DNA from: an uncultured Flavobacteriaceae bacterium
GTDB lineage: Bacteria > Bacteroidota > Bacteroidia > Flavobacteriales > Flavobacteriaceae
Length of the DNA stretch: 64,000 nucleotides
Assembly: GCA_947497145.1 (NCBI GenBank)
Contig: CANMFQ010000004.1
Span: forward strand, 132,560-196,559
Reading direction: 5' to 3'
This document shows positions 11,735 to 52,735 of this stretch, piece after piece. Numbering within the stretch: the first letter of the stretch is position 1; each line of letters begins with the position of its first letter. Position numbers and translations under genes: made by a program. The notes beneath the pieces are model-generated. The model made no database searches. It saw nothing but the letters and a program-made list of their open reading frames with translations, and was not told the DNA's origin.

Positions 11735-11775
11735 GAAAGCCTTTCAGTATATCTGAAAGGCTTTCTCCTTTTTAT
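11735..11775 (+). terminator. Rho-independent terminator of the NHL lipoprotein gene
   Basis: A perfect 13-bp stem, GAAAGCCTTTCAG (11735-11747) with its complement (11753-11765) around the loop TATAT, followed by CTCCTTTTT. It starts 8 bases after the stop codon. Confidence 0.92.
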
Positions 11776-11955: not shown

Positions 11956-13098
11956 TTACTCCATTTTTAATACCGCAAACTTGCCTTTATTCCACCCATG
12001 CACCAACAGATATAGTTGTTGTGATCCGTTCTTATTTACAATATGAGGCCAAACCTGATGAATGTTTGTTAAAACAGGAATATTCAAATCTCCTGGTATC
12101 ACCGTAGAAACCAATTTTTCGCCTGTATGCACATACAAGGGCGCCGACTTTTGATCGCCAATTGCCTCTAGTGCATTTAAAAAGTAATGCTCATCTTTAT
12201 AAGACACATTACACACTAAACTGCCCGTGGGAATATCATTAAAGGTTTCAATAAATTTACCTTTTTTTGTAAATCTCACTACTTGCCCAGCTGCTCTATT
12301 GGCTACAAGTATCTTATTTTCATGTGCATAAATTCCATGCGCAGTCTGAAATTGACCGGGCTTATCACCCTTACCGCCCCATGCAAGTTTACCCCAACTC
12401 CAAACGCCATTCTTTTCTTTAATTGTCATTACAAAATCACCTTTAGAATAACCGTGGGCCACATACAAGGTACCTTTAAGGTAGGTAACATCGGTAACGC
12501 CAAAATTGCTGTCTTTAGAGGCGAAAAATTCATTAGCCTGTGCAAATTTAAATTCCGTACCAGTGGGCTTTAAAATTTCACTTACAATCTTTCCGTCTAA
12601 AGTCAATACTAACACGCGCTTACCTTCTTGTGCTACCGCAAGGTATTTTTTGCCTTTGTGAATAAAGAAAACAATACCGTGAATATTATCTTTTAATCGT
12701 GCATCGTTTCCAATGAGGGACCACTTGGTAAGATCGGCACTAATAGCGCATAATCCGTAACCTGGTATTCCGGTATATACAATTCCTGTTTCAGGATCTT
12801 CATTAAAACCGCCATGCATACCCGGTTCAAATTCATGTGCAGCCTCCGGAAATGCCGCAGTTAATTCTTGATCCCACGAAAAAACATAATCCCCTTGACC
12901 GGTTTTTAATTTTGCCTGGGTAGGTATTTCATCGGTAGTATTGATATCATCTTCATGATGATGGTGTGCAATAGCTGTATTTTCATGGCTATGGTGAGAA
13001 AAGTCATGTGAGTCTTGGTTATCTTGCGCCTTTAGCACATTAAAACATCCGAGATAAACCAGCATTGAACATAATGAAAGTGTCGTTTTTGTTAACAT
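11956..13098 (-). CDS. Exported beta-propeller protein with His-rich N-terminus
   Basis: A 380-residue protein of no named family that I can place securely. It has a signal peptide (cleavage likely after KAQ, about residue 25), then a histidine-rich stretch at residues 31-49 with nine His, then repeated strand patterns (GKKYLAVAQEGKRVLVLT, VTDVTYLKGTLYVAHG, AHENKILVANRAAGQVVRF) typical of an NHL/six-bladed propeller. It is the last gene of the PUL 2 series, 85 bases after a DUF1501 gene and before the terminator. The His tract could bind Cu, Zn, Ni or heme iron, which would suit neighbours carrying CxxCH motifs. Function unknown. Confidence 0.8.
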   Translation of the reverse strand: MLTKTTLSLCSMLVYLGCFNVLKAQDNQDSHDFSHHSHENTAIAHHHHEDDINTTDEIPTQAKLKTGQGDYVFSWDQELTAAFPEAAHEFEPGMHGGFNEDPETGIVYTGIPGYGLCAISADLTKWSLIGNDARLKDNIHGIVFFIHKGKKYLAVAQEGKRVLVLTLDGKIVSEILKPTGTEFKFAQANEFFASKDSNFGVTDVTYLKGTLYVAHGYSKGDFVMTIKEKNGVWSWGKLAWGGKGDKPGQFQTAHGIYAHENKILVANRAAGQVVRFTKKGKFIETFNDIPTGSLVCNVSYKDEHYFLNALEAIGDQKSAPLYVHTGEKLVSTVIPGDLNIPVLTNIHQVWPHIVNKNGSQQLYLLVHGWNKGKFAVLKME

Positions 13099-13183
13099 AG
13101 ATTGTGAGTTATAATTTTTGAATAGGCATAAAATTCTTTATATGGAGTAAGCTAATAATTCTTTATTAAATTTTTAATTTTTT

Positions 13184-14641
13184 TTAGGTTAAAATATCTT
13201 TTATAACATTTCCGTGAACATCTGTTAATCTGAAATCTCTTCCTTGAAAACGATATGTTAAGCGTTCGTGATCTAATCCCAATTGATTTAAAATGGTTGC
13301 TTGTATGTCATGCACATGCACTTTTCCGTTAATTGCCGAGTATCCTATTTCATCGGTTTCTCCATAGGTAAACCCTGGTTTCACTCCACCACCAGCCATC
13401 CACATGGTGAAGGCTTCATTATGGTGATCACGTCCCAAGAAATTTTCTCCAGTTCTAGCTTCCATCATGGGAGTACGTCCAAATTCACCTCCCCAGATTA
13501 CCAAGGTATCTTCTAGCATTCCTCTTTGCTTAAGGTCTAGAAGAAGTGCTGACATGGGTTGATCTATCTGCTTACATTTGTTCTTCAACCCGTCTCCTAC
13601 CCCATTGCCAGGCCCTGTACCATGCATATCCCAGCCTTTATCATACAATTGTACAAAACGCACTCCATTTTCCACCAGTCGCCGTGCCAAAAGACAGTTG
13701 TTTGCAAATGAGTTTTTACCGGGGGTTACGCCATACATTTCCTTTATATAATCGGGTTCTTTTTCAATATTCATCACCTCGGGTACCGAAGTTTGCATTT
13801 TAAACGCTAATTCATACTGCGAAATACGGGTTAAAATTTCAGGGTCTTTCACTTCTTGATACTCCTGCTCATTAATTTTATTGATAATTTCTACGGATTT
13901 TTTCCGCATTTCACTATCAATTCCTTTAGGGTTTGTGAGGTTTTGAACGGGTGTACCCGTCGCTTGGCATTGCACCCCTTGGTGTACTGTGGGCAAAAAG
14001 CCACTACCCCAAAGTCGTTTCCCTCCTGTTGGTCCTCCTGATGATAATAGCACCACAAAACCGGGTAAATCTTTATTGGGTGAACCAAGGCCATAGGTTA
14101 CCCAACCGCCTAAACTAGGGCGTCCCGTTCTGGCAGACCCCGTTTGCATTAAAAATTGCGCTGGGGCATGGTTGAACTCATCGGTTTGTACGGCTTTTAA
14201 AAAGGCAACCTCATCCACAACTTTAGTAAAATGTGGTAAATTATCAGACACCCAAGAGCGCGATTCTCCGTACTGCTTAAAATTAACCTGAGGTCCCAGC
14301 ATTTGTGGCACTCCACGAATAAAAGCAAACCGCTTTCCTTCTAGCAACGAAGGCGGGCATGCTTGCCCATCCATTTTTTGAAGCTCGGGCTTATAATCAA
14401 AAAGTTCTAATTGCGAGGGCGCTCCTGCCATATGCAAATAAATAACATGTTTTGCACGTGGAGCAAAATGGGGAATTTTACTATAACTCCTTTTAGGCTG
14501 CATGGTATTGGCAAGAAGGTTTCCGCCTCCCAATACTGAACCTAGGGTTAGGGCACCCATACCTGAGATACACTTTTTTAAAAAATGCCTTCTGGTATTG
14601 TATTCTGCCTGCCTAAAATGTGCTTCGTTTAAAATATCCAT
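13184..14641 (-). CDS. DUF1501 family protein, Tat-exported (pair B)
   Basis: A 485-residue DUF1501 protein. This family sits in the alkaline phosphatase/sulfatase superfamily but lacks the formylglycine Cys. The N-terminus has a twin-arginine signal (TRRHFLKK at 16-23, then a hydrophobic segment), implying folded export, possibly with a cofactor or metal. Family motifs are HMAGAPSQLELFDYKP, VIWGGEFGRTPMME and GRDHHNEAFTMWMAGGG, rich in Asp/His suited to metal binding. It starts 3 bases after the stop of the DUF1553 partner at 14645, so the two are translated together. The biochemical role of the family is not established; a hydrolase or redox partner acting on glycans or sulfate/phosphate esters is inferred. 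Confidence 0.9.
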   Translation of the reverse strand: MDILNEAHFRQAEYNTRRHFLKKCISGMGALTLGSVLGGGNLLANTMQPKRSYSKIPHFAPRAKHVIYLHMAGAPSQLELFDYKPELQKMDGQACPPSLLEGKRFAFIRGVPQMLGPQVNFKQYGESRSWVSDNLPHFTKVVDEVAFLKAVQTDEFNHAPAQFLMQTGSARTGRPSLGGWVTYGLGSPNKDLPGFVVLLSSGGPTGGKRLWGSGFLPTVHQGVQCQATGTPVQNLTNPKGIDSEMRKKSVEIINKINEQEYQEVKDPEILTRISQYELAFKMQTSVPEVMNIEKEPDYIKEMYGVTPGKNSFANNCLLARRLVENGVRFVQLYDKGWDMHGTGPGNGVGDGLKNKCKQIDQPMSALLLDLKQRGMLEDTLVIWGGEFGRTPMMEARTGENFLGRDHHNEAFTMWMAGGGVKPGFTYGETDEIGYSAINGKVHVHDIQATILNQLGLDHERLTYRFQGRDFRLTDVHGNVIKDILT

Positions 14642-14644
14642 AGC

Positions 14645-17419
14645 TTAGCCTTTAACAATAAATTCATCTAAATTTAATAATGCATTTGCAACAACAGTTA
14701 GCGCTGCCAAGTGCCTTTTTTCAGTTCCCTTTTTGGCAATAGCAATTTCAGGGAATTCTAGTTCTCTATTTCCAACATCATAGTGTTCATACGCATCATG
14801 GTAGAGTTCTTTTAATAAAAGGAGTTTCTCATCAGTAATAGTTTTTCCCATAGTCTTAAAATACCCATAAGACAATTGCTTATCAATAGTAGCCTCTTTT
14901 TGTGCCATTTGAGTAGCAAGGGCATTTGATGCCTCAAAAAAAGTAGCATCATTCAACAAATTCAATGCTTGGAGGGGTGTATTGGTACGTATACGCCTTG
15001 AGGTGCAAACCGATTTATCTGGGCTATCAAAAATCAACATTTCTTTGGGTGGCGTCACGCGTTTCCAAAGTGTATAAAGTGATCGCCTGTATTTGGCTGA
15101 ATCTCCTTTAACAGCCCACTCTGGCACGCCTGTCCATCCACCATCTACAGCACTATTTACTACACTAGGCCCACCAACAATAGGGTTTAACAAATCACTT
15201 ACGGTGAGTACTTGATCTCTAATTTGTTCGGCTGACAAACGGGTACGATGACTACGCGCCAACCATTGGTTTCTAGCATCTTTTTCCAATTTATCTGGGG
15301 TAACAACTGATGACTGCATATAGGTAGCCGAAGTTACCATTTCACGTAACAATGGTTTTATACGCCACTGGTGCTCATTCATAAAACGCAATGCCAGCCA
15401 GTCTAATAATTCAGGATGCGTAGGCTTGTCGCCTTGTGAACCAAACTCTTCCATAGAAGCAACCAAACCAAAACCAAATATTTGCTCCCAAAAACGATTG
15501 ACGGCTACCCGAGCGGCAAGGGGATTTTCATCACTTAGCATCCATTGAGCAAAAGCCAAACGATCTTTAGGCTCTTTATTTTCAGGAATACCAAAAATAT
15601 CAGGAATACTTTTTGATACCTCATCACCCAAATTCAACCAACTACCACGCTCAAACAAATGCGTCTTTCTTGCCTTATTTTTGGGTAATTCTTGTATTAT
15701 AGGGGTAGATGTTGCGGGAATTTCGGCAAGTTTTTTTAACTTTTGTTTCAATGCCGCATCATAAGCATTCATACGGGGTTCTTTTTCATAAAACCGCATC
15801 TTATCGACAAAAAATAAGTTACCTGCGTAGGTTTCTCCTTTATAAAAGCGGAGGTACATATCATGTGTTCCTTTCACTTGACTTATGGCAGTTTTAAATT
15901 CACGGGTATTATTACGGGTATCTATACCGCGTTTCGCTACCGCAGTTTTTGTAATTTTTACTTCGCCAATTTTTTCACCCTCTAAGGAATCTAAATGTAT
16001 GACTATATGACCCGCATAGGGTATAGTAGCCGAAGCAAAAAAGCCTATTTCCTGAACCGCATCTAAGTCAATAGCATCATACTTCACCCATGAACTGTCT
16101 TGTACTTGCCATAAATGCTTTAAACTTTCATCTAGCTCTATAAAAGGACTAGATTCATAGTAAGACTCTGCCTCATGTATACGGTACCCTAAGTGTTTTA
16201 AAATAGTCTGTATTTCTCCGTAGCGATACTTGGTTTGTGGTGGTATATCAGTAGGTTTCAATTCTGATTTTACACTAGCTAAAAGTGCTTCTACTTCCTT
16301 TTTATTTTCTTCAGAATAGGTATAAACCTTGGGCTCTTCAAAATAAGAATCATTGTCTTTAGCCGTATTAAAAAAGGCCATCGATTGATAAAATTCTTTA
16401 TGCTTAAAAGGATCATAGGGATGACTATGACACTGTACGCATGCCATTGTTGTACCTTGCCACACCTCATAGGTGGTCGCTACTCTTTCTAACACAGCCG
16501 CCACCCTAAACTCTTCATTATCTGTACCTCCTTCATCATTTGCTAAGGTATTTCTATGGAAGGCCGTTGCTATCAACTGCTCTTCGGTTGGTTGCGGTAA
16601 TAGATCACCAGCCAATTGTGTTATAGAAAACTCATCAAAAGGCATATCATTGTTAAAAGCATCTATCACCCAATCTCTAAACTTCCAAATTTCTCTATTT
16701 GAGTCTTTTTCATATCCTTTAGAATCGGCGTAGCGCGCCAAATCCATCCATACCGTTGCCCAGCGTTCTCCAAAATGTTTTGATGCTAGTAAAGCGTTTA
16801 CTTCCTTTTCATAAGCATTTTCAGCAGTATCCTTCATAAAACGCGCTACCTGTTCTACGGTTGGTGGCAAACCAATAAGATCAAGATACAACCGCCTTAG
16901 TAGAACTTCCTTTGCTGCTTCAGGAGAAGGAGACAAGCCTTTTTGGGTCATCTTTGCATAAACAAATTGATCAATTTCATTTCTAGACCACAACAAGCTG
17001 TCTTTTTTAGGAGGCGTAATATTATTTTTTGGTGGAATATACGCCCAATGCTTTTCCCATTTGGCTCCCTGATCTATCCATTGTTTTAGAACATCAATTT
17101 CTTGCTGTGTTAATGGAGGTGCGTCTAGCGGCATTCTCAGTTCAACATCTTCATGTACCAACCGTTTATACAACTCGCTTTTAGAATGATTGCCCCTAAC
17201 AATAGCCGGTTTACCTGACTGGGTTTCTGAAAATGCATCTTCTTCAAAAAGTAAACTGAATTCCCCGTTGGCTTTTACCCCGCCATGACATCGTAAACAT
17301 TTATTATTTAAAATGGGTCTTACGTCTCGATTAAAACTAATAACCGTATCAGAAGTGTTGGTACAAGACCCAAAAAAAATAACCAACAATACTATTCCTA
17401 AATATTTATTCATGTACAC
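14645..17419 (-). CDS. PSCyt1/DUF1549/DUF1553 lipoprotein with two CxxCH motifs (pair B)
   Basis: A 924-residue periplasmic lipoprotein (lipobox FFGSC, Cys19). Order: planctomycete-type cytochrome c domain about 25-120 with C41-L-R-C44-H45, DUF1549 about 146-350 ending in a second C327-V-Q-C330-H331, a central region with jelly-roll-like strands, and DUF1553 about 640-880. The first CxxCH is a classical heme c attachment motif; the second is in a position usual for DUF1549. This architecture is abundant in Planctomycetes and Verrucomicrobia and always tends to pair with DUF1501, as here. Its reaction is unknown. I infer electron transfer coupled to modification of a carbohydrate. A 256-base gap separates it from the preceding DUF1501 gene. 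Confidence 0.9.
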   Translation of the reverse strand: MYMNKYLGIVLLVIFFGSCTNTSDTVISFNRDVRPILNNKCLRCHGGVKANGEFSLLFEEDAFSETQSGKPAIVRGNHSKSELYKRLVHEDVELRMPLDAPPLTQQEIDVLKQWIDQGAKWEKHWAYIPPKNNITPPKKDSLLWSRNEIDQFVYAKMTQKGLSPSPEAAKEVLLRRLYLDLIGLPPTVEQVARFMKDTAENAYEKEVNALLASKHFGERWATVWMDLARYADSKGYEKDSNREIWKFRDWVIDAFNNDMPFDEFSITQLAGDLLPQPTEEQLIATAFHRNTLANDEGGTDNEEFRVAAVLERVATTYEVWQGTTMACVQCHSHPYDPFKHKEFYQSMAFFNTAKDNDSYFEEPKVYTYSEENKKEVEALLASVKSELKPTDIPPQTKYRYGEIQTILKHLGYRIHEAESYYESSPFIELDESLKHLWQVQDSSWVKYDAIDLDAVQEIGFFASATIPYAGHIVIHLDSLEGEKIGEVKITKTAVAKRGIDTRNNTREFKTAISQVKGTHDMYLRFYKGETYAGNLFFVDKMRFYEKEPRMNAYDAALKQKLKKLAEIPATSTPIIQELPKNKARKTHLFERGSWLNLGDEVSKSIPDIFGIPENKEPKDRLAFAQWMLSDENPLAARVAVNRFWEQIFGFGLVASMEEFGSQGDKPTHPELLDWLALRFMNEHQWRIKPLLREMVTSATYMQSSVVTPDKLEKDARNQWLARSHRTRLSAEQIRDQVLTVSDLLNPIVGGPSVVNSAVDGGWTGVPEWAVKGDSAKYRRSLYTLWKRVTPPKEMLIFDSPDKSVCTSRRIRTNTPLQALNLLNDATFFEASNALATQMAQKEATIDKQLSYGYFKTMGKTITDEKLLLLKELYHDAYEHYDVGNRELEFPEIAIAKKGTEKRHLAALTVVANALLNLDEFIVKG

Positions 17420-17675
17420 TACAATTATTTACGCAGCGTTCTTTAACCCGCTTTTACTAATCAACAACTCTTACCCAATGGCACCACTACGGTGTCAAAA
17501 AAAACCTTCTCATTTCAAGGCAAGCATGGAAGAATTATCTCTTAACTATCTCTCCTTCTGATTAAAAAATCTATTTCGTCTTAAAATTACTTCAAAAAAA
17601 ATTGCTACGCTTCGTTTCTTAATTTTATTCCACCTACAAACCTGATTACAAAGCCGATATATCATCTGAGTATAG

Positions 17676-19136
17676 CTATGCTTTTTCTACATCTTTCTTT
17701 AAAGGCTTTCCAAACAAATCTAAAAGTGGTTTTCCTAATCCATCTGGAGTGGTATAAAAAGGTCTTCCTTCAATGGTGTAATGCGTTTCAGGAGGTATAC
17801 CCAAAGCGTGATAGATAGATTGGTGCACCTGATCAATCACAACTGGGTTTTCTATAGATGAGCAAGGTCGTTCATCAGCAGTTTTACCATATACCAAACC
17901 TTTTTCTACCCCACCACCCCACATAAGGATGGAACTACCATCTGTAAAATGACGGTGCATACCATAGAACTTTTCATCTTCAATAATATCTGGTTGCTCT
18001 ACCTGATTTTTCACCTGCTCGCCCGGTCTCCCCTCCATAATAGCATCACGACTAAATTCACTAGCCAAAATAATCAACGTACGGTCAAGATGGCCACTCT
18101 CATCTAAATCTTTCACTAATTGCGCAATGGGTCTATCTATAAGCTCTTTCATTTTCACCAAGCGAGTATGTCCATTTTCATGGGTATCCCAACCTAAAAA
18201 GGGTTCATACTCTGTAGAAACGCTGATAAACCTCCCGCCGTTCATAGCTAGTCTTTTTGCTAACAGACATCCTAAACCAAACCTTCCTGTATTGTAGGTA
18301 TCATATACTTCTTTGGGCTCTTCTGATAGGTCAAAAACCTTAGCCTCGGGAGAATTTAATAGGCGGTATGATTGCTCCATAGAGCGCATTAACGATTCTC
18401 GTTGATAATCACTACCATTCTCCATAACGCTGCTTTTATTGGCCAGTTCTTTATAGAGTTTATATCGAGCTTCAAATCGTTTGATAGACATGCCTTGCGG
18501 CGGACGCACACTTTCAAGACCTCCAGAAGGATCAGGTATTAAAAAAGGGCCGTATTCTGTACCTAAAAAGCCTGCCGAATGAAATGCTTTTAGCTCTTCA
18601 GCTTCACCTACGGTAAATCGCTGCCCCATGGCAATAAATGGTGGTATAACAGGATTCACTGGGCCTAACTCTTTAGCAATCCATGCGCCTATATGTGGTG
18701 CCTGTACCGATTGTGGCGGCTCATAACAGGTATGCCAATGGTATTGATGCCTGGTATGCAATATATGCCCCAAATCAGCCGATTTATAAGAGCGAATAAT
18801 AGCGCCTTTATCCATAACACTGCCAATAGATTCCAATCCTTTAGAAAATTCTAACCCGTCTACAGCTGTAGGTATTTTAGGAAAAGTACTAAGTATACGC
18901 TTACTCTCTACCCCTTTTTCATAAGGCACATAAGCCTTTGGGTCAAAAGTTTCTGTATGCGCCATACCACCTGCCATCCAAAGTAAAATGACGGTATCAG
19001 CTGTTGATGCTATTTTGGATATTGAGGGAGAACAAGAACTCAAAAAACTAGCAAGGGGAATGGTAGTCGCCGATGCAGAAAGACTTGCCGCTGTCATTTT
19101 TTTTATAAAATCTCTACGTGCGTTTTGTGTTTTCAT
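17676..19136 (-). CDS. DUF1501 family protein, Tat-exported (pair A)
   Basis: A 486-residue DUF1501 protein with a twin-arginine signal (ARRDFIKK at 6-13) followed by a hydrophobic stretch ending in FLSSC, which could also be a lipobox (Tat lipoprotein). Compared with its paralog at 13184 the motifs have changed: LLWMAGGMAHTETFDP, ILASEFSRDAIMEGRPG and FYGMHRHFTDGSSILMW replace the EFGRTPMME and GRDHHN forms. The core fold therefore seems kept, but substrate or metal coordination may differ. It starts 8 bases after its DUF1553 partner at 19145, so the pair is cotranscribed behind SusCD. Function unproven. Confidence 0.9.
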   Translation of the reverse strand: MKTQNARRDFIKKMTAASLSASATTIPLASFLSSCSPSISKIASTADTVILLWMAGGMAHTETFDPKAYVPYEKGVESKRILSTFPKIPTAVDGLEFSKGLESIGSVMDKGAIIRSYKSADLGHILHTRHQYHWHTCYEPPQSVQAPHIGAWIAKELGPVNPVIPPFIAMGQRFTVGEAEELKAFHSAGFLGTEYGPFLIPDPSGGLESVRPPQGMSIKRFEARYKLYKELANKSSVMENGSDYQRESLMRSMEQSYRLLNSPEAKVFDLSEEPKEVYDTYNTGRFGLGCLLAKRLAMNGGRFISVSTEYEPFLGWDTHENGHTRLVKMKELIDRPIAQLVKDLDESGHLDRTLIILASEFSRDAIMEGRPGEQVKNQVEQPDIIEDEKFYGMHRHFTDGSSILMWGGGVEKGLVYGKTADERPCSSIENPVVIDQVHQSIYHALGIPPETHYTIEGRPFYTTPDGLGKPLLDLFGKPLKKDVEKA

Positions 19137-19144
19137 GGCGTCTG

Positions 19145-21982
19145 TTAATTTATAAATTGAAATTCAGGCAAAATCAAAGTAGACCAAAATATATCTTGTA
19201 CAGCTTCTTTTTTAGGATTATCACCCAAAACGGATAGCATAATATTCTTTTCCTCAGCACTGGGTTTTCTACCCAATGATTTTTGATAAAGTTCCGTTAT
19301 TATGGCTTCACTATCATTATTATATCGATTAAGCCACAACGCAGCACCTTCTTCTAAAACACTATTAAAAAATTGGCCATTGGTTAACTCCAATGCCTGT
19401 AATAATGTAGCTTGTTCATCTCTGGAAGTTGTTACATTCTCCCTACTTGGCCTCCCCAAAGCCTTCATAAATGGGTGTTGCTTTACAAGGCTTGCACGGG
19501 CAAAATCACTTTCTTGTTCTTCAAAAGTAAAATCGAGCAACTTACCCCAATTTGCAGTACCATAATTACGAACTTCTGCCCATTCACTATCATCAAATAT
19601 TGTAGCAACCCATTCTTTTGACGGTTGGTCAGCTGTACTTTTCCAGCTGTTATCTGCATTCATTGTTATAATGTCTCCATTTTCATAGCTGATTTTCAAA
19701 GCGAATAATATTCCCGCAGGATTTGCAATGTTTCCTTCATTCACCCCTTCTATGGCAATAGTATTTTTTCCTGGAATTAAAAAATCACCCACATCTAGCT
19801 TATCAACCTTTCGCCAATCTTCACCTTCTGATACTTTCTTACCATTGATATACAGGGTATATGAATGATCAACCGAAATTAAAGCACGAGCGCTAAGCAT
19901 GGGTTTATTTGGTAGCGTGAAAGTCTTTCTAAAATAGCGCTTACCGGGTTCTGGCAAGACATCTCTATCAAACTTCACCTCTCTATGCCAAATTCTAGCC
20001 TCGGGCAATTCTTCTCCCTTAGGATTATAAGCAACCGCAGCATAAACGGGAGTAATAACTTGGCTTACCGCATCTGAGAATTGCTCGGCACTCAAACGCC
20101 TAAGTAAGGGACCTTCAAAAACATAATTCGTTTTTATCGCTTCTTGACTCTTATATTTTGCCGTAGGAAGTTGATAGGCTTTTGAGGTCATAATACGCCT
20201 CATCAACTGTTTTAAGTCATAGCCTGCATCTATAAAATCTGCCGCTAGCCAGTCGAGCAAATCAGCGTTCCATGGGGTATTATCCATTTCATCAACAGGT
20301 TCTACCAAACCACGCCCCATCAAGCGTTTCCAAAAACGATTGGTAATGGTACGGTACAGTCGACCATTTTCAGGTTTAACCATTACCTCAGCTAATTTTA
20401 ATAAGCGCTCTTGTATGGTTGCAGCTTCTACATCACCCAATTCTGGATATAAAAAATTGACTGTTGCCATTTTGCCTAGCGGTTTATCACAGCGATTAAG
20501 TTCCAGTACCGAATCTGCAAAAACCGAAGCAAAACCATAAGACTGCTCTAAGGTTAAGTTACTTACAAAACTATTGTGACAAGAGGCACATTTTACGTTC
20601 ACTCCCAAGAGTGACTGCCCAATATTTTGTGCTGCCTGCATTTCGGTGCGCTGGCTTGCATTGACAACCCCACGCCATTTTATACCCTTGATAAACCCTT
20701 CAGAAACAGCCGTTGGATTGACCAATTCTTTTACCATTTGGTCATAGGGTTTATTTGTTTCTAAAGATTTATACAGCCAGTCAGTAATTTGCTTTCTTCC
20801 GCCTGTAATAAAACCCGTTCCGCTATAGTCATTACGCAAGAGGTCATTCCAAAAACTCAACCAATTTTGGGTGTAATTATGGGTATCACCCAAGAGCTCA
20901 TTAATAAGAACGTTTCTTTTGTTAGCATCCGTATTGTTTACAAATGCAGTAATACTTTCTGGTGCTGGGAGCAGGCCAACAATATCCATATAAGCACGTC
21001 TAATAAAGGTTCTATCATCAACCACTTTAGGCCAAGCTAACCCTTGCTCCTTAAAATAAACATCAATTATTTTATCTACAGGATGATCTTGATTAGAAAC
21101 TTTAGGTAAATTTGGCTTCACCAATGCCAAAGGGGCTTCAGGAAATACTTTAAGGGCTTGATCAGACCAATGGGCGCCATTCTGAATCCATAATTTAATC
21201 AAATCAATCTCATTCTTCTTGAGTACCTTTCCTTTTTTAGGCATTACCTCATCGTCATTTGGAGATAGTGTAATTCGCCGATACAGTTCACTTTCCAATG
21301 GTTTTCCTGCCACAATAATGGGACCCGATTTTCCTCCTTTAAACACGCCTTTTTTGTTCTCTAAAACCAATTCTCCTTTTTGCTTATTCTCACTATGACA
21401 TTGATAGCAATTATGGGCAAAAATGGCCCTTACTTCAAGATTTAATCGGTCTTGCTGCGCTGCTGAAAGCGTATCTGATGCTTTTATCTCGGCAAGTAAT
21501 GCCAAACCTTTACTATCATCATAAGATTCTTGATTACCGGGCAATACACTGGTTAAAAAATCTTCACCATGCGTAAGATTAGCCCCCAGATGCCCAGCAA
21601 CAGTAAGGATCACCACCGTTACCACAAGAGACGCTTGATATATGCGGCGGTTCAATAATTTCCCACTTACGGTATTTCTAAGCAAGAGTGCTGTAATACC
21701 AGCACATACTGCGGTGGCAATACCTGTATTTCGGTGATTGATTACAAGATCGCCACTATACGCATCATAGGTGTAAAAAAGCCATCCTAAAAATGCTGCA
21801 ATGATGGCAAAAATAGCTCCCAAGTACACCATAAAATGAATGCCCTCACGTAACCCCTGCCTTTTACCACCCATAGTAAGCAATTCAAAAAACAAGGCAA
21901 CCACCAAAAGACCTATGGGAAAATGTACCAATAAGGGATGTAAGCGTCCTAAAAACTGAAATATCCAATTGAAAGTTTCCAT
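19145..21982 (-). CDS. DUF2231-like membrane/cytochrome c/DUF1549/DUF1553 fusion (pair A)
   Basis: A 945-residue multidomain protein. Residues 13-135 hold four transmembrane helices with the DUF2231-like motif RLHPLLVHFPIG and further His residues (H83, H131) that might ligate heme b. A PSCyt1 cytochrome c domain follows with C192-Y-Q-C195-H196 and the GEVMPKKGK-like segment. DUF1549 spans about 300-490 with a second C465-A-S-C468-H469, then the DUF1553 region (RTITNRFWKRLMGRGLVEP). About 672-812 is a beta jelly-roll resembling the sugar-binding modules of GH2/GH78 enzymes (SYTLYINGKKV, FLIPGKNTIAIEG), and the DUF1553 tail closes the protein. It follows SusD by 116 bases. Suggested role: membrane-anchored redox protein acting on glycan; unproven. 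Confidence 0.88.
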   Translation of the reverse strand: METFNWIFQFLGRLHPLLVHFPIGLLVVALFFELLTMGGKRQGLREGIHFMVYLGAIFAIIAAFLGWLFYTYDAYSGDLVINHRNTGIATAVCAGITALLLRNTVSGKLLNRRIYQASLVVTVVILTVAGHLGANLTHGEDFLTSVLPGNQESYDDSKGLALLAEIKASDTLSAAQQDRLNLEVRAIFAHNCYQCHSENKQKGELVLENKKGVFKGGKSGPIIVAGKPLESELYRRITLSPNDDEVMPKKGKVLKKNEIDLIKLWIQNGAHWSDQALKVFPEAPLALVKPNLPKVSNQDHPVDKIIDVYFKEQGLAWPKVVDDRTFIRRAYMDIVGLLPAPESITAFVNNTDANKRNVLINELLGDTHNYTQNWLSFWNDLLRNDYSGTGFITGGRKQITDWLYKSLETNKPYDQMVKELVNPTAVSEGFIKGIKWRGVVNASQRTEMQAAQNIGQSLLGVNVKCASCHNSFVSNLTLEQSYGFASVFADSVLELNRCDKPLGKMATVNFLYPELGDVEAATIQERLLKLAEVMVKPENGRLYRTITNRFWKRLMGRGLVEPVDEMDNTPWNADLLDWLAADFIDAGYDLKQLMRRIMTSKAYQLPTAKYKSQEAIKTNYVFEGPLLRRLSAEQFSDAVSQVITPVYAAVAYNPKGEELPEARIWHREVKFDRDVLPEPGKRYFRKTFTLPNKPMLSARALISVDHSYTLYINGKKVSEGEDWRKVDKLDVGDFLIPGKNTIAIEGVNEGNIANPAGILFALKISYENGDIITMNADNSWKSTADQPSKEWVATIFDDSEWAEVRNYGTANWGKLLDFTFEEQESDFARASLVKQHPFMKALGRPSRENVTTSRDEQATLLQALELTNGQFFNSVLEEGAALWLNRYNNDSEAIITELYQKSLGRKPSAEEKNIMLSVLGDNPKKEAVQDIFWSTLILPEFQFIN

Positions 21983-22098
21983 TTATCTATAACTATTTTT
22001 CTATCATCATTAATCTTTCCTACTTCAAAATTGACAGGTCACACACAGTAAAAAGGTTTAAAAAAATCATCTTCTTTAGTAAAATACTAATTTATGGA

Positions 22099-23610
22099 TT
22101 AATAGCCCTCATTTTGACTCAATTTCGGATTTACCACACGTTCTCTATTTGGTATAGGGAATAAAATTTCATGTGCATCAAATATATAATCACCGGTTGA
22201 AAACACTACAGCTCCCCTTGGGGTTGTTTGTTCAGCCTTTTCTGATTCGCCGTGGGCGTTTAAATGGGCGACAAGTTCTGTAGGGGTTAAGGTTCTTCTT
22301 AGGTCAAACCAACGATGGTTTTCAAATGCCAACTCAATTCTTCTTTCATGAAGAAGTACGTTTCTAAACTCTTCCTGAGAAAGTCCGGAAACAGGCAGTA
22401 GCCCTGCCCTTTCCCTAATCCGGTTTATATAACCATACGCCTCCGCATTTGGTCCTGATTGCTCATTAATAGCCTCTGCAAGCATCAATAATACATCAGC
22501 ATACCTGTATATTGGCCAATTATTATCAGGACGGCCTTGAATGGCATGTTCATAATGGTACTTTTCAATAAAAGGAATTGCAACAAACTCTCCTGTGTTC
22601 ATATCAGTATAGCCTTCACTAATAGAAATAGCTTTACGTACATCGCCATCTTCATAGTCTGCCATAATATCTAGGGTAGGGATATTCCATCCACCACCAC
22701 TTATACCAGGAAAACCGGTAACTTCACCATTGGTAAACTTAGGATAAAAGTTATAAATAAAACCACTTTGTTCGCCAAGGTCATTACCTCCTTGAAACTG
22801 TACCTCAAAAATAGATTCCATATGGTTTTTGTTAGCAGGATCAAAAACATCAGCATAATTACCTAATAAATCATATAGACCCAAATCTACTACTTGATCA
22901 AGAAATGTTTTAGCCTTGGCGTAATCCTTTCTTGTCAACCAAAATTTACCTGCTAAGGTTAAAGCAGCACCTTTAGTCAATTTTCCTACTTCGGATGCAG
23001 GAACAGTTGATGGTAAAGAAGCTACAGCAATATCTAGGTCATTTTCAATCTGAACATACACTTCGGCCACTGGAGAACGTTGTAGCTGAAATGCCTCACT
23101 AGGATCTATTAGGGGCTCGGTTACTAAGATCACATCACCATAATACTGTGTTAATAGAAAATAGTAATAGGCTCTAAAAAATCGTAGTTCTCCTTCAAAT
23201 CCAGATCTTGCATCAGAAGTCAATTCTGCCTCTTCCAATTTAGACAACGCTAAATTAATATTCCCCAAAGTATTGTATATATCTCTGTATAGGTCATACA
23301 TTCTTCCGGTACCTGAGTTGTATTGCCAATATTCAAAAGACTCAATATTGGGTGCATTACCCCTATTCCCTTCATCAAAATGAACGGTAGTATTGTCGGT
23401 AATCATTTCACTATACAGCCACTGACTCCCTATAATATTCTGTAACTGTCCATAAATACCTATTATGGCTTGATTAATCTGTGTTTCATCCTTATAAAAA
23501 GTGCCTTCCCCTAGTTGATTGGGATTGTCTTTGTCAAGAAAATCATCGCTACAGGAGGACACGGTCAAAATCACTAAGAGGCTTATGAATAATTGAATTA
23601 TATTTTTCAT
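22099..23610 (-). CDS. SusD/RagB-like glycan-binding lipoprotein (PUL 2)
   Basis: A 503-residue SusD-family lipoprotein, signal ending in TVSSC (Cys20). It has the N-terminal SusD region (FYKDETQINQAIIGIYGQL), TPR-like helices (GELRFFRAYYYFLL) and the C-terminal block (LLHERRIELAFENHRWFDLRR). It follows the SusC stop by 17 bases and is followed by the DUF1553/DUF1501 genes. Expected to sit on the outer surface, bind oligosaccharide and close the SusC pore. Confidence 0.95.
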   Translation of the reverse strand: MKNIIQLFISLLVILTVSSCSDDFLDKDNPNQLGEGTFYKDETQINQAIIGIYGQLQNIIGSQWLYSEMITDNTTVHFDEGNRGNAPNIESFEYWQYNSGTGRMYDLYRDIYNTLGNINLALSKLEEAELTSDARSGFEGELRFFRAYYYFLLTQYYGDVILVTEPLIDPSEAFQLQRSPVAEVYVQIENDLDIAVASLPSTVPASEVGKLTKGAALTLAGKFWLTRKDYAKAKTFLDQVVDLGLYDLLGNYADVFDPANKNHMESIFEVQFQGGNDLGEQSGFIYNFYPKFTNGEVTGFPGISGGGWNIPTLDIMADYEDGDVRKAISISEGYTDMNTGEFVAIPFIEKYHYEHAIQGRPDNNWPIYRYADVLLMLAEAINEQSGPNAEAYGYINRIRERAGLLPVSGLSQEEFRNVLLHERRIELAFENHRWFDLRRTLTPTELVAHLNAHGESEKAEQTTPRGAVVFSTGDYIFDAHEILFPIPNRERVVNPKLSQNEGY

Positions 23611-23627
23611 TATATCTTTTTTTTTGA

Positions 23628-26600
23628 TTAAAACTTAAATGTTGCTCCCACAGAAAAAGTTCTCGGTAAGGGATAAGGAGTTTCATCTACTCCAGGTCTT
23701 ATTCCGCTACGGTCATCAGGTTGGGGATTACCATATTCATAACCCGAAAACAAGAGAAGGTTATCTCCATTGGCATATATTCTCACAGTATCAAGAAATG
23801 CGTTTTCATTAAGAGGAAGGTTATACCCCAATGACAAGCTTCGTAGCCAGGTATGGCTTGCATCAGAAATATACCAACTGTTACCCTCGCGTTCCCATTT
23901 CCAAAAATTAGATGTAGGAGCTGCATCACCAGACATCGTAGTATATCTATATCGTTGTGCTGCCCTTGTCTCTACATTAAATACACCATCCATGTTCATG
24001 GTGGTATGCTCTATTTGCGTAAAAACATCATAGTTTTGCGCTCCGGTGAACACAACGTTGAAATCAAAAGCCTTGTAATCTAATCCCAAATTAAGCGCAT
24101 AGACATATTCTGGATGCGGATTACCTATTTCAACAAAATCTTGAAAATCATAGGTAACCTCTCCATCACCGTTGGCATCCCAATAAATGAAAGAACCTGG
24201 TACGGCACCGTCTTGAGTAGGAGCAGCATCTATCTCAGCCTGTGATTGGAATACTCCAAGATTCCTAAACCCATGTAGCATGGCAATAGGCCTACCTACT
24301 TGTGAAACGTGATGAGCACCATAAATACCACCCGTTCTAATTTCGTCATTATCACCGTTTATTTCGAGCACTTTATTTTTATTGAACGAAATGTTGAAAC
24401 TGCTACGAAACCTTAAATCATCGGTAATGTTAGTCTTATAATTCAGAGCTAGCTCTACCCCTGTATTTTCCACTTTTCCAATATTGGTAAAAGTGGTCTG
24501 AAAGCCGGTTACTACAGGAATATTAACAGGTAAAAGCATATCAGTAGTTGTTTTTCTATAATATTCAGCCACAAAACTTAATCGATTATTGAACATGGTT
24601 AGGTCGATACCATAATCGAATTGTTCTGATTTTTCCCAACCGAGATTTGGATTTGAAAGTGAACTCAAGATCTTACCTGGTTGAAAAGTTCCTCCCAAAA
24701 TATAATTGGTGGTTGAAAGCGTTGACAAACTCGGATAATTACCAATATCATTGTTTCCTGTAGCTCCAAAACTTGCCCTTAGTTTTAAATCATTTAACCA
24801 CGAAACATCTTTTAAGGGAGCTTCTTCTGAAATTCTCCAGCCTACCGAAACAGCCGGGAAATCACCCCACTTATTATTTGCCCCAAATCGTGAACTTCCT
24901 TCTCTACGATAGGTGGCAGACACTAAATATTTGTTTTTGTAATCATAGTTGAATCGAGAAAAATAAGCTAATAAACTCCAACTAGATTCACTCGAAAACG
25001 CGCTCAAGGATTCAGCTTGCTGCAAAAATCGCACCTCGTCATCAGGAAATTTTGATCCATTACCGGAAATTGCTCGTACTGTTTCTTCTTGTGAACTAAA
25101 ACCTAATATCACATTTACATTATGATTTTCATTAAACACCTTATTATAGGATAGTAATTGATCTGTAGACCAATTGAAAATTTCTTTATTACGCTCAATT
25201 AGGACAGCATTATTAGGTGGAGGTCTATTCCATGTAAAACCAGCCAAAGTAGAAGGTGTGAATTGATTATACCTTTCATTTTCTAAGATGGCGTTTAAGG
25301 TAGATTTGAAGCTAAAGTCTTTGAAAAACTTTAGTTCAGCATAACCATTAGCTAATAATCTGTTGGTATTAAGGGTGGTTTTTTGTTCATGAAGTATTTG
25401 TACTGGGTTTGCGCTATTAAAAATTAAATCGCCTGGGGTATCCTTATCACCCAAATAAGCATTAAAACTTCCATCCTCATTATAGACCGGCTCACGGGGG
25501 TCTACCCACAATGCAAGCCCAAGAGGCGTATGTCTATTTCCTTCATCTATGACACGTTCATTAGTTCGAGATCCTGATACATTAAGTCCTACGGTAAAAT
25601 TATCTGTAATTTTATTATCGACTTTTACCCTGACATTGAAGCGTTCAAAATTTGTTTTGATAACAACCCCTTCCTGATTAATATAACCTAGTGTAATGAG
25701 TGACTTTGTTTTTTCACTACCCGAAGCTATGGAGAGATCATATTTTTTAAATAATGGACTTTTGGCTAATATCTCATCCATCCAATCTGTTGAAATGGTA
25801 TTGTTTTCAGGATTACGAATACCAATAGGCACTTCACTTTCCATAGGTTCTCTACCATTGGCTGCAATATATTTGTCAATCCAACTCGATTTTTGAAACT
25901 CACCAAATTCTACTGCATTCATCATATCAACCCTCCTATTTATTGGCACATTTTGAACACCAGTAGTGACATCTAGGGTAACTGAAGTTTTACCCGCTAC
26001 ACCTTTTTTTGTAGTAACTAAAATCACACCATTTGAGCCCCTTGCCCCATATATAGCTGTTGAAGCGGCATCCTTTAATATAGATATAGACTCTATTTCG
26101 CTAGGGTTTAAACCTACAGAAGACTCTAGCGGAAAGCCGTCAACCACCCATAAAGGATCATTGCCCGCTCCTAGCGACCCCAAACCCCTTATAGAGATAT
26201 TTAGGTTTTGTCCTGGGCGACCTGAATTTGATGCTACATTTACCCCAGGAGCCTGACCCAATAACATTCTTGATGCAGTTGAAGCTGGCACATCTTTAAG
26301 CTCTTCTAAATCTACCACTGACACCGCAGAAATAATGTCCTTTTTTCGCTTTGTACCATATCCAACAACGACAACTTCTTCTAAGGCTGCTGTATTTTCA
26401 GAAAGTGTTATATTGATGTTCTGCTGGCCGGCCACCGCTACTTCCTTTGTTAGAAAACCAATATAAGAAACTACCAAAACGGCATTAGCATCAACATCTA
26501 GTACAAAATTGCCATCAAAATCTGATTGCGTACCATTGGTTGTTCCTTTTTCTACTATACTTGCACCAGGTAATGGAGCTCCATTACCGTCAAAAACAAC

Positions 26601-27011
26601 CCCTTTGATCGATTGCTGGACACTAGTGTTATTTTCAATTTTCAATTTAGTTTTAATAAAAATCGCCCCATTATCAGTGATACTAAATTTGGTATTTGTA
26701 TGATTTTCACAACGTTTTAATAACACTTCTAAAGGAAAAGTTCCCTTTTTTATAGCAATAGGCAAACTTTCTTTAAAAAGATCAGATCTATAAATAAAAT
26801 TGTAATCTGTTTGTTTTTTTACAACTTCCAATACTTCTTCTATTGATAGCTTTTCATCAGCAATGAAAGTGATTTTTTCGTTTTGAGAAAATCCCTTTTC
26901 AACAGTGAATCCAAAAGAAAGTACTGAAAAGAAAAAAATGAAGATTTTCATGGTCATAAGAAGGTACGTTTTGGCTGAGCCAAGGGAACTCCCGTTTGGT
27001 TTAGTTTTCAT
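23628..27011 (-). CDS. SusC/RagA TonB-dependent transporter with STN domain (PUL 2)
   Basis: An 1127-residue outer-membrane transporter. Signal segment about 20-42, STN domain about 48-120, carboxypeptidase-regulatory-like domain about 136-205, TonB box region EEVVVVGYGT at 211-220, plug with SILKDAASTAIYGARGSNGV, then the barrel ending in the aromatic TFKF. Its regulatory-like domain shares the block SIVEKGTTNGTQ with the SusC of PUL 1, but the two barrels differ widely, indicating different ligands. The STN domain and the upstream FecR gene indicate ligand-induced sigma release. It is the outer-membrane entry for whatever the downstream CxxCH proteins process. Confidence 0.95.
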   Translation of the reverse strand: MKTKPNGSSLGSAKTYLLMTMKIFIFFFSVLSFGFTVEKGFSQNEKITFIADEKLSIEEVLEVVKKQTDYNFIYRSDLFKESLPIAIKKGTFPLEVLLKRCENHTNTKFSITDNGAIFIKTKLKIENNTSVQQSIKGVVFDGNGAPLPGASIVEKGTTNGTQSDFDGNFVLDVDANAVLVVSYIGFLTKEVAVAGQQNINITLSENTAALEEVVVVGYGTKRKKDIISAVSVVDLEELKDVPASTASRMLLGQAPGVNVASNSGRPGQNLNISIRGLGSLGAGNDPLWVVDGFPLESSVGLNPSEIESISILKDAASTAIYGARGSNGVILVTTKKGVAGKTSVTLDVTTGVQNVPINRRVDMMNAVEFGEFQKSSWIDKYIAANGREPMESEVPIGIRNPENNTISTDWMDEILAKSPLFKKYDLSIASGSEKTKSLITLGYINQEGVVIKTNFERFNVRVKVDNKITDNFTVGLNVSGSRTNERVIDEGNRHTPLGLALWVDPREPVYNEDGSFNAYLGDKDTPGDLIFNSANPVQILHEQKTTLNTNRLLANGYAELKFFKDFSFKSTLNAILENERYNQFTPSTLAGFTWNRPPPNNAVLIERNKEIFNWSTDQLLSYNKVFNENHNVNVILGFSSQEETVRAISGNGSKFPDDEVRFLQQAESLSAFSSESSWSLLAYFSRFNYDYKNKYLVSATYRREGSSRFGANNKWGDFPAVSVGWRISEEAPLKDVSWLNDLKLRASFGATGNNDIGNYPSLSTLSTTNYILGGTFQPGKILSSLSNPNLGWEKSEQFDYGIDLTMFNNRLSFVAEYYRKTTTDMLLPVNIPVVTGFQTTFTNIGKVENTGVELALNYKTNITDDLRFRSSFNISFNKNKVLEINGDNDEIRTGGIYGAHHVSQVGRPIAMLHGFRNLGVFQSQAEIDAAPTQDGAVPGSFIYWDANGDGEVTYDFQDFVEIGNPHPEYVYALNLGLDYKAFDFNVVFTGAQNYDVFTQIEHTTMNMDGVFNVETRAAQRYRYTTMSGDAAPTSNFWKWEREGNSWYISDASHTWLRSLSLGYNLPLNENAFLDTVRIYANGDNLLLFSGYEYGNPQPDDRSGIRPGVDETPYPLPRTFSVGATFKF

Positions 27012-27104
27012 AAATTTGAATGTTTATTAATTTTTAAATTAATGATCTGGGGGGTGGAGATTTAAATTTTGCCGATTCTAGACTCCATTCCCTTCTTTTT
27101 TGCT

Positions 27105-28244
27105 TTAATACATGATAATTGTGTTGTTTTTTATTTCATAATTCACTTCGTTAGTATTTTTAATAATATGTAATATTTGATGTAGGCTTAGTGTTTTTCG
27201 TAAAACACCATTAAATGTCAACTTCTTTATATTTTCATTAGTAAAAACTACATCAATGTCATACCACCTTGAAAGTACTTTCATAATAGTTGCTAGTGAT
27301 TGATTTTTAAAACTAAAAAGTCCGTTTTTCCACGATACTATATCGTAAACATTCACTTTTGATAGCTTTAATGAGTTAGTTTTACGGCTCCATTTAGCTT
27401 GATGACCTGGGGTTAGATTTTGAGTATCACTTTCATTTTTAACCAACACCTTACCCTCTACTAAAGTTGTAGCAATAATATCATCCTCTTTATAGGCCTT
27501 AATATTAAACTCGGTACCTAAAACATCTATCTGCTGCTGCTCTGATTGTACAATAAAATGTGTTTCATCATGAGCAGTACTTGGAGAGACTTCAAAATAA
27601 GCTTCTCCATATATGAGTGTCACTTTTCGTGGCTCATTCTTTAAAAAGGAAACTGGGTATTTTAGCTGTGTCTCAGAATTGAGCCATACTTTTGTTCCAT
27701 CAGCAAGCACAAGAAAAAATTGCCCTCCTCGGGGAATCGTAAGTACATTTTCAGCGGGTATATTTGTTTTACTTTTTTCTCCTGAGTTATATACCAATCG
27801 CTCTCCATTACTTGAAACTTTTTCTGTCTGATAAGTAGCTCCTTTTTCTAAAACAACTTGTGATCCATCAGCCAAGGTTAGTGTTGCTTTATCTGTACCT
27901 ATTTTAATTGAATTGGGCTCAACTTCTTTAACTTGTTTCACCACCGTTTTTACTTGATTAGTTTCTGTATTTAAAAACCATAGGAAACCTAAAGTCACAA
28001 AAAAGACAAATGCAGCAGCATATTTTAAATAAAAATTGGTATTATTTTTTGCCGTAACTTTTAACGACACCTCATTCCATGCCTTCTTTATATGAAGAAT
28101 ATCAAGCCCTTTTAAATAATGTTCCTTTGCCTTATTATAATAAAGACGATGTGCTACGGATTCATTATACCACGCATCAAACACCTCCTGCTCTTCTTTG
28201 GTAAGTGTATTGTTAATTTTCTTTATTATGAGTTTGAACTCCAC
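27105..28244 (-). CDS. FecR-family anti-sigma factor (PUL 2)
   Basis: A 379-residue anti-sigma regulator with a cytoplasmic N-terminus, one transmembrane helix about 73-91 (YAAAFVFFVTLGFLWFL), a FecR domain about 165-270 (IPRGGQFFLVLADGTKVWLNS) and a C-terminal DUF4974-type STN-binding domain about 310-378. The gene lies between the ECF sigma gene and the STN-type SusC, as in PUL 1, and starts 121 bases after the sigma stop. It keeps the sigma factor inactive until signalled by SusC. Confidence 0.93.
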   Translation of the reverse strand: MEFKLIIKKINNTLTKEEQEVFDAWYNESVAHRLYYNKAKEHYLKGLDILHIKKAWNEVSLKVTAKNNTNFYLKYAAAFVFFVTLGFLWFLNTETNQVKTVVKQVKEVEPNSIKIGTDKATLTLADGSQVVLEKGATYQTEKVSSNGERLVYNSGEKSKTNIPAENVLTIPRGGQFFLVLADGTKVWLNSETQLKYPVSFLKNEPRKVTLIYGEAYFEVSPSTAHDETHFIVQSEQQQIDVLGTEFNIKAYKEDDIIATTLVEGKVLVKNESDTQNLTPGHQAKWSRKTNSLKLSKVNVYDIVSWKNGLFSFKNQSLATIMKVLSRWYDIDVVFTNENIKKLTFNGVLRKTLSLHQILHIIKNTNEVNYEIKNNTIIMY

Positions 28245-28365
28245 AACAGCTTTTGTTTATCTCTTTATAGTAAGACAAACAAATCATTAAAAAGGGTGAC
28301 AAAAAAAGTAAAATAATTCAACATTTAACAAAAAATATCACTCATTTGATATAAAAAGAGGATTT

Positions 28366-28929
28366 TTAATAAGTATTCAAAAAGAAAAATACAACAACAG
28401 CTATCAATTCGTCAAATTTTAATCTAGCACGTTTTAATTGGGTCTTGACTGTATTGGTAGATACCCCTAGTTCCTCAGCTATCTCCTTATAGCGATAGTT
28501 ATTGATGAAGCGTAACATGACTATCTTTTTCATTTTAGCGGGTAAATGAGCTAATACATACTGTACTTTTTTGTAGCGTGCATTTTTATCTTCTTCAAGA
28601 TGCCATTCTGGTGTATATTTTAAATTAGCGCTAACCTCTTGTTCTAGCATTTTTGACCTATCAGTAATCTTTACAACCTTCAACATATTTAAACATCTAT
28701 TCCTTACCATAGCGTATAAATATGCTTTCAAATTCGTTTTAAGGTGAATAGAATTGGATTTTTCCCACAGCTGTACAAAAACTTCTTGCACCACATCTTC
28801 ACTCAAACCGCTGTCAAAAAGATACTCATTAGCATGACCCACTAATTCTTGGTACACATCTTCAAAAAGTCTTTTGAAGACAACATGATTCTTACGCTGA
28901 ATTTCGGTTAAAATTTCTTTTGAAAACAT
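28366..28929 (-). CDS. ECF sigma-70 factor (PUL 2)
   Basis: A 187-residue ECF sigma factor. Region 2 is at about 25-90 (LSEDVVQEVFVQLWEKS) and region 4 at about 125-175 with the helix-turn-helix YKEIAEELGVSTNTVKTQLK. The C-terminus is hydrophobic (VVVFFFLNTY), a feature seen in several Bacteroidota PUL sigma factors. It is first in the PUL 2 series. Its upstream region holds an 8-bp hairpin, a 24-bp dyad and a TATCCTGTACT site, so it may be under transcription-factor control in addition to autoregulation. Confidence 0.93.
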   Translation of the reverse strand: MFSKEILTEIQRKNHVVFKRLFEDVYQELVGHANEYLFDSGLSEDVVQEVFVQLWEKSNSIHLKTNLKAYLYAMVRNRCLNMLKVVKITDRSKMLEQEVSANLKYTPEWHLEEDKNARYKKVQYVLAHLPAKMKKIVMLRFINNYRYKEIAEELGVSTNTVKTQLKRARLKFDELIAVVVFFFLNTY

Positions 28930-32100: not shown

Positions 32101-32155
32101 CACGATCAAGATATTAGCAAACAGTATTATGCTATAAACCCATTTAAAGAAACCA

Positions 32156-34921: not shown

Positions 34922-34923
34922 AA

Positions 34924-37581: not shown

Positions 37582-37589
37582 CCTTTAAA

Positions 37590-38834: not shown

Positions 38835-38894
38835 TTTTAAAAATACACATTTACAATTGCATACTAACGTTTTTATTAGCCCGTAATATCGCTT

Positions 38895-41576: not shown

Positions 41577-41598
41577 TTTGACTATTATTTAAATAATG

Positions 41599-43146: not shown

Positions 43147-43147
43147 T

Positions 43148-49970: not shown

Positions 49971-50058
49971 TCGTTTGATTTTGTTTTTTTATGGCAGGCT
50001 TCTGCAAATAATTTGGTTTGCAAAAGTTTATTTCTAAATAAATTTTAAGAGCATATTA

Positions 50059-51339: not shown

Positions 51340-51349
51340 GCATGTCAAA

Positions 51350-52723: not shown

Positions 52724-52735
52724 AAAACCAACCCT

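Follow-up and report, generated by a model that had tools for sequence, protein, structure and literature searches.

A SusCD locus with two DUF1553-DUF1501 gene pairs in an uncultured Flavobacteriaceae bacterium, one pair a candidate redox module for rhamnosyl glycans

Genes of the locus

The window, a stretch of 64,000 nucleotides from an uncultured marine Flavobacteriaceae bacterium, contains on its minus strand a gene run (11956-28929) in which two pairs, each a DUF1553 gene followed by a DUF1501 gene, lie behind the genes of a glycan importer. We call them pair b, nearer the importer, and pair a. The head of the locus is an extracytoplasmic function (ECF) sigma-70 factor (28366..28929; Pfam Sigma70_r2 and r4, NCBIfam Sig70_bacteroi1 just below cut-off), followed by a FecR-type anti-sigma regulator (27105..28244; Pfam FecR and FecR_C), the SusC/RagA TonB-dependent importer (23628..27011; TIGR04056, E 1e-259) and a SusD-like surface glycan-binding lipoprotein (22099..23610; Pfam SusD_RagB and SusD-like_3). 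SusC and SusD genes are thus adjacent, as in a polysaccharide utilization locus (PUL). Next come DUF1553b (19145..21982) and DUF1501b (17676..19136), 8 bases apart, then DUF1553a (14645..17419, with a lipobox FGSC) and DUF1501a (13184..14641), 3 bases apart; DUF1553a probably starts two codons downstream of its listed GTG, with the ATG at 17413. An earlier note on this DNA, made from the sequence, gave these positions, the order (CxxCH protein, then DUF1501 protein), both gaps and the placement behind SusCD with FecR and the sigma factor at the head, and all of this held, the placement through Pfam and NCBIfam matches.

Pairs b and a are separated by 256 bases (17420..17675) that may hold a promoter of their own, so the pairs, adjacent as the note described, may be on separate transcripts. 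The run ends in an NHL-like propeller (11956..13098), His-rich at its N-terminus and 5.2% His overall, distant kin of propellers behind DUF1501 genes elsewhere. The note had also ended the locus in a terminator, but the stem at 11735-11765 that resembles one was scored for the plus strand alone, on which it lies 3′ of a convergent gene and not of the propeller. That plus-strand gene (10237-11727) encodes a TIG/NHL repeat protein with an acidic EEQEE stretch, and the stem fits its 3′ end. Pfam found no glycoside hydrolase (GH) catalytic, lyase or other carbohydrate-active enzyme domain and no sulfatase in 11956-28929, in agreement with the note.

Heme motifs, membrane domain and DUF1501 active site

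Both large proteins carry PSCyt1, DUF1549 and DUF1553 above the Pfam cut-offs. DUF1553b begins with a DUF2231 membrane domain (residues 14-137; 39.7 bits, cut-off 26.4), followed by a predicted PSCyt1 c-heme domain (192-251), DUF1549 (PSCyt2) with a second CxxCH (301-490) and DUF1553 (PSD1) from residue 528, interrupted at ~658-822 by an insert resembling carbohydrate-binding module family 67 (CBM67). DUF1553a has PSCyt1, DUF1549, a CBM6-like insert (433-543) and DUF1553. The DUF2231 domain and both inserts had escaped the earlier note, which did report CxxCH in the large proteins: there are two each in DUF1553a and DUF1553b, and exactly two in each of the nine DUF1553 proteins of this genome.

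Both CxxCH motifs and M247 are invariant in 47/47 aligned sequences, and the genome has a cytochrome c assembly gene. The alignment gave no additional His or internal Met invariant across both subfamilies, so the second heme is perhaps open or has an unusual ligand, speculatively the invariant Y482. Five His never vary across seven aligned DUF2231 domains (H15, H20, H83, H131 and H138 in DUF1553b numbering), and each of the seven proteins also has a CxxCH and a later Met-Pro; we infer from these residues that the DUF2231 part forms a b-type heme conduit in the membrane that connects to a c-heme. Because of the two invariant CxxCH, the invariant Met, the five-His membrane domain and the assembly gene, we consider a redox role of the pairs likely. 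Weak Pfam matches to fatty-acid cis/trans isomerase (E 0.0013 and 1.5e-4) extend over only ~45 residues near the cytochrome part; 148 genomes searched for that isomerase yielded none for comparison, and the controls were equally silent.

The DUF1501 proteins match PF07394 at 511.8 bits (a; E 2e-153) and 240.2 bits (b; E 6e-71) against a cut-off of 27. A twin-arginine motif is present in 9/9 DUF1501 proteins of this genome, including both at the locus, as the note had it, and R7 and R8 are invariant in 44/44 aligned rows; export by the twin-arginine translocation (Tat) route is therefore predicted. The predicted model of DUF1501b has the alkaline phosphatase superfamily fold by fold search. The DUF1553b model (predicted local distance difference test 82.7, predicted template modelling score 0.70) yielded a CBM67-type fold for the insert; its helical DUF1549/DUF1553 core gave no fold assignment, because the insert fills the match list. 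Structure prediction, a check that the note had proposed, was thus informative for DUF1501b and the insert but not for that core.

The active site appears to depart from the superfamily. H127 opens helix 127-136 in the DUF1501b model; a profile alignment that lacks significance (E 0.12) sets it opposite the sulfatase Cys. Across 44 rows the position of the superfamily Ser/Thr/Cys nucleophile appears to be an invariant His; the N-terminal halves gave no significant profile alignment, and we infer this N-terminal part of the assignment. The CxPxR motif is absent: at that spacing b has H127-T-R-H-Q and a has H158-A-P-A-Q, with no Cys in the column. In DUF1501b a Glu ends the strand where superfamily enzymes carry a metal-binding Asp, and an invariant Phe replaces the second-metal-site His/Asn (E360-F361 versus Asp-His/Asn). 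D317, H319 and H396, a carboxylate and two His, vary little or not at all; profile alignment to PhoA, at a low probability of 11.8% (E 0.0025), places H319 on an invariant PhoA His that we take to be a metal ligand. Hydrolysis by the canonical route is disfavoured by these residues, while other invariant Ser, Thr and Cys leave room for hydrolysis by DUF1501 of some kind. The note had proposed a hydrolase of the alkaline phosphatase fold; the fold stands, but the nucleophile position and second metal site speak against the usual enzyme.

Conservation, subfamily b and rhamnose

The pairing is general. This genome has nine DUF1553 proteins (10 matches, two being stretches of one protein) and nine DUF1501 proteins, in 9/9 adjacent pairs. 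DUF1501 lies directly downstream of DUF1553 in 40/40 further classical loci, drawn from 199 Flavobacteriaceae genomes of which 57 have the DUF1553 family. A membrane protein with DUF2231 and PSCyt1 occurs within the same 20-kb stretch in 33/40 classical loci, and a DUF2231-cytochrome in 4/7 other loci of this genome (the one at L017, lacking a Pfam DUF2231 call, was assigned by alignment). No separate DUF2231 gene was found in 16 subfamily b stretches, where the membrane domain is fused N-terminally to DUF1553; in some relatives (L036, several of L085-L102) one stands behind the second, classical pair. Pair a has no separate DUF2231 gene adjoining it. The propeller was rejected as an obligatory part and is accessory: the broad family occurs in 22/40 classical and 5/16 b stretches, and the window's own type in 10/199 genomes at E 1e-10, four of these weakly.

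The genome offers further arrangements. Outside the window, a few kb to the left of its first base, is a third pair with a DUF2231 cytochrome (L019), and three of the nine pairs fall within ~30 kb, with two SusCD loci (C4:124438-154542). The paralogues carry CBM67, CBM6, LamG or no binding domain. At L020:7750-18746 the neighbours of a pair and propeller are a DUF7133-cytochrome c protein and a membrane protein that looks like a transporter, presumably TRAP-type; they hint at a different small-molecule substrate for that paralogue.

For DUF1501b we scanned one genome per species (84,980 species) and analysed the best 80 of 583 confirmed relatives, which are 71-94% identical and all from Bacteroidota or Balneolota. 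DUF1553b was recognised in 77 of the 80 loci; in the other three DUF1501b starts ≤662 bases from the contig end. SusCD lies directly upstream of pair b in 10/80, and a classical pair directly downstream in 12/80; five Cyclobacterium loci have a divergent classical pair upstream. In one uncultured Flavobacteriaceae genome pair b occurs twice in tandem (L029:7128-15874), and behind the second copy come a propeller and a GH78 gene, in that order; the arrangement recurs in L030, whose left end is cut. In a tree of 37 DUF1501 sequences subfamily b is a deep, separate clade, while DUF1501a is classical. Recent tandem duplication of pairs a and b was rejected, as DUF1501a and DUF1501b are 28% identical and belong to deeply separate clades. 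In Kriegella and Arenibacter the classical partner next to b belongs to the window type; that of Spirosoma/Runella relatives is clearly distinct and groups with this genome's own copy C2 (support 100/99). The Cyclobacterium partner forms its own clade, whose position the tree does not settle, and the Lewinella partner sits on a long, unsure branch. A classical pair was thus brought in next to b on two or more occasions, perhaps as many as four, and this suggests that the two pairs carry out linked steps on a single substrate.

Several lines point to rhamnose. The DUF1553b insert has in the model the fold of the SaRha78A CBM67, and what we take to be the CBM67 ligand positions are mostly kept in aligned DUF1553b sequences; the insert may bind L-rhamnose in a calcium-dependent way. 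The nearest carbohydrate-active enzymes found to the locus are a sulfatase, a GH78 alpha-L-rhamnosidase and a second sulfatase (30508..36378). In Maribacter antarcticus (L027) all three have homologues near pair b; in Arenibacter (L036) both sulfatases do. About 26 kb from pair b is a plus-strand L-rhamnose catabolic operon (47865..54154) with a rhamnulose-1-phosphate aldolase/dehydrogenase over its curated cut-off, an L-rhamnose isomerase (TIGR02629 as best match, E 4e-149, below cut-off), an FGGY kinase (a weak rhamnulokinase match) and an NCS1-like transporter. Some b loci have RhaT upstream of the pair and GH106 (PF17132, E 2e-185) or GH78 close by. In three genomes (G041, G042, G061) pair b is seemingly the sole DUF1553 system (weak DUF1553 scores, best E ~1e-27) and stands beside GH106, with RhaT in one and GH78 in two. 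Rhamnose isomerase co-occurs with pair b in the genome sets, and genomes with b show this association more strongly than other DUF1553 genomes do. As a lifestyle control, alginate lyase (PF08787) occurs in 7/17 b genomes versus 44/182 (p 0.11), so an algal lifestyle alone is not obviously the source of the signal.

Other observations weigh against a rhamnose-specific, SusCD-fed pair b. The co-occurrence statistics are uncorrected for kinship or genome size, and rhamnose isomerase also leans to DUF1553 genomes without b (14/40 versus 29/142, p 0.047). Its match is missing in 3/17 b genomes (G016, G029, G192) and, in the other count, 2/12 (G029, G441). No rhamnose gene sought was nearby in 62/80 b loci, some of them short. 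Five of 38 DUF1553b rows are gapped at most insert ligand positions, and the N180-equivalent position is mostly His, not Asn. The 40 classical loci used for comparison were hand-picked, mostly from the top of a score-sorted list, and are not random. A SusC gene at any place in the stretch is not more frequent at b (3/16) than at classical loci (7/40); of the synteny that the note wished compared, the direct SusCD placement in a minority of relatives was found but enrichment of SusC was not. Weighing both sides, we think it probable that pair b is rhamnose-linked. A glycan role is favoured because of the CBM67-type insert, the isomerase co-occurrence and the loci with SusCD directly upstream.

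Interpretation and comparison with known systems

Taking the rhamnose link and the redox role jointly, we see about an even chance that pair b works as a redox module for L-rhamnosyl glycans, tethered to the membrane and facing the periplasm. SusCD would carry oligosaccharides into the periplasm, where the CBM67-type insert, modelled in fold, would hold a terminal rhamnose. DUF1501b, Tat-exported and probably metal-loaded in the cytoplasm, and the second heme, that of DUF1549, would jointly act on this sugar, and electrons would pass from the PSCyt1 His/Met c-heme through the His-rich DUF2231 domain to the respiratory chain, along motifs that are present. Pair a, with its CBM6-type domain, may carry out a corresponding step elsewhere on that glycan and might use b's membrane domain as well. 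Dehydrogenation of a sugar hydroxyl could prime the linkage for cleavage or clear a block ahead of the nearby sulfatases and rhamnosidase; of the possible chemistries we would name it first, but only tentatively. The earlier note had the pairs process the glycan, perhaps by heme-linked oxidation: the glycan and redox roles gained support, while the processing step and the reaction itself are only proposed.

The main competitor is that DUF1501 is an ordinary hydrolase of its superfamily, sulfatase- or diesterase-like, using metal-activated water or another residue, with DUF1553 serving mostly as a carrier that binds carbohydrate, its hemes being there for stability or some side function. We think this rather unlikely: CxPxR is absent, the nucleophile position is seemingly His in all 44 rows and E360-F361 stands for Asp-His/Asn; further, in the 80 loci, contig ends aside, DUF1501b was not seen apart from its heme protein, which a dispensable carrier explains poorly. 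In a Rhodopirellula study, a protein with these domains is discussed as the target of an ECF factor up under all three stresses (PMC2754498), which fits a reading of the pairs as proteins of envelope stress or respiration that sit in PULs for the sake of regulation, their binding domains just anchoring them to polysaccharide. The present locus is likewise under an ECF sigma factor. ECF-FecR-SusCD is, however, a usual control of a PUL, the range of binding domains among the paralogues is the pattern expected of substrate-specific proteins, and b has a closer tie to rhamnose than the remaining DUF1553 genomes show. We regard this explanation as improbable.

Oxygen-dependent O-demethylation of methyl-rhamnose would have the hemes feed electrons to a mononuclear DUF1501 metal site (D317, H319, H396) and free rhamnose for RhaT. 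The invariant or nearly invariant two His and carboxylate would suit such a site, and the loci with RhaT upstream and GH106 or GH78 close imply free rhamnose as end product. Yet the site follows from residue order and secondary structure alone and we know of no such activity in the alkaline phosphatase fold; we hold it very improbable. A redox module acting on rhamnosyl glycans accordingly stays our preferred reading of pair b. A broader version, which we find doubtful, makes DUF1553-DUF1501 a whole class of oxidative carbohydrate-active systems with subfamily b as the L-rhamnose member: an alkaline phosphatase fold minus nucleophile and second metal site, now given to metal-centred sugar chemistry, would be wired to the respiratory chain by the diheme cytochrome and the DUF2231 membrane heme protein, and interchangeable CBM67, CBM6 and LamG domains would set the glycan.

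Titles and abstract openings in the literature gave no tested function of DUF1501, DUF1553 or DUF2231. A conserved subfamily of a large unexplained protein family now has a first testable substrate class; with a probable membrane electron partner and an active-site oddity, function becomes testable in cultured marine bacteria. It could reveal a respiratory, heme-based attack on algal glycans beside hydrolases, lyases and sulfatases.

The 3-keto-glycoside pathway links periplasmic sugar oxidation to cytochrome c and is our working analogy, although the pairs have no flavin or NAD dehydrogenase domain by Pfam. The window holds a 3-keto-disaccharide hydrolase-family gene (36772-37581) in a cluster (36772-46243) that also encodes an FG-GAP protein, a protein of 893 residues that ends in a cytochrome c domain and two further open reading frames (515 and 1031 residues), SusD/SusC-like by size and place only; this is possibly another heme-linked sugar oxidation route. 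Compared with a Bacteroidota PUL, the locus has the same ECF sigma, FecR, SusC and SusD, but its operon has two heme/DUF1501 pairs in place of carbohydrate-active enzymes or sulfatases. DUF1501b shares the fold of ENPP6, PafA and S1 sulfatases and has a Glu at the strand end where they carry a metal-binding Asp, but differs in the His at the probable nucleophile position, the second-site Phe and the lack of CxPxR. The insert shares in the model the fold of the CBM67 of Streptomyces avermitilis alpha-L-rhamnosidase SaRha78A (PDB 3w5m, 3w5n), but sits in a heme-motif protein, not a glycosidase, and has mostly His at N180.

The domains themselves are widespread, with 41 copies each of DUF1549 and DUF1553 given for Rhodopirellula baltica in PMC2754498. 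In freshwater Verrucomicrobia, PSCyt2 genes stand beside a conserved unknown gene, function unknown, and some planctomycete-type cytochromes carry fused binding modules, PF08531 and CBM6 among them, often with sulfatases near (He et al. 2017, PMC5615132). The earlier note's 'undescribed system' is thus a known conserved gene arrangement without known function, and the arrangement is more ordinary than the note held; pair b has specific distinctive features. Against the Verrucomicrobia PSCyt1-PSCyt2-PSD1 proteins as described there, the domains are the same and the present locus is in Bacteroidota, whereas subfamily b adds a fused DUF2231 and a CBM67 insert inside DUF1553, and is tied to rhamnose isomerase and, in 10/80 loci, to SusCD.

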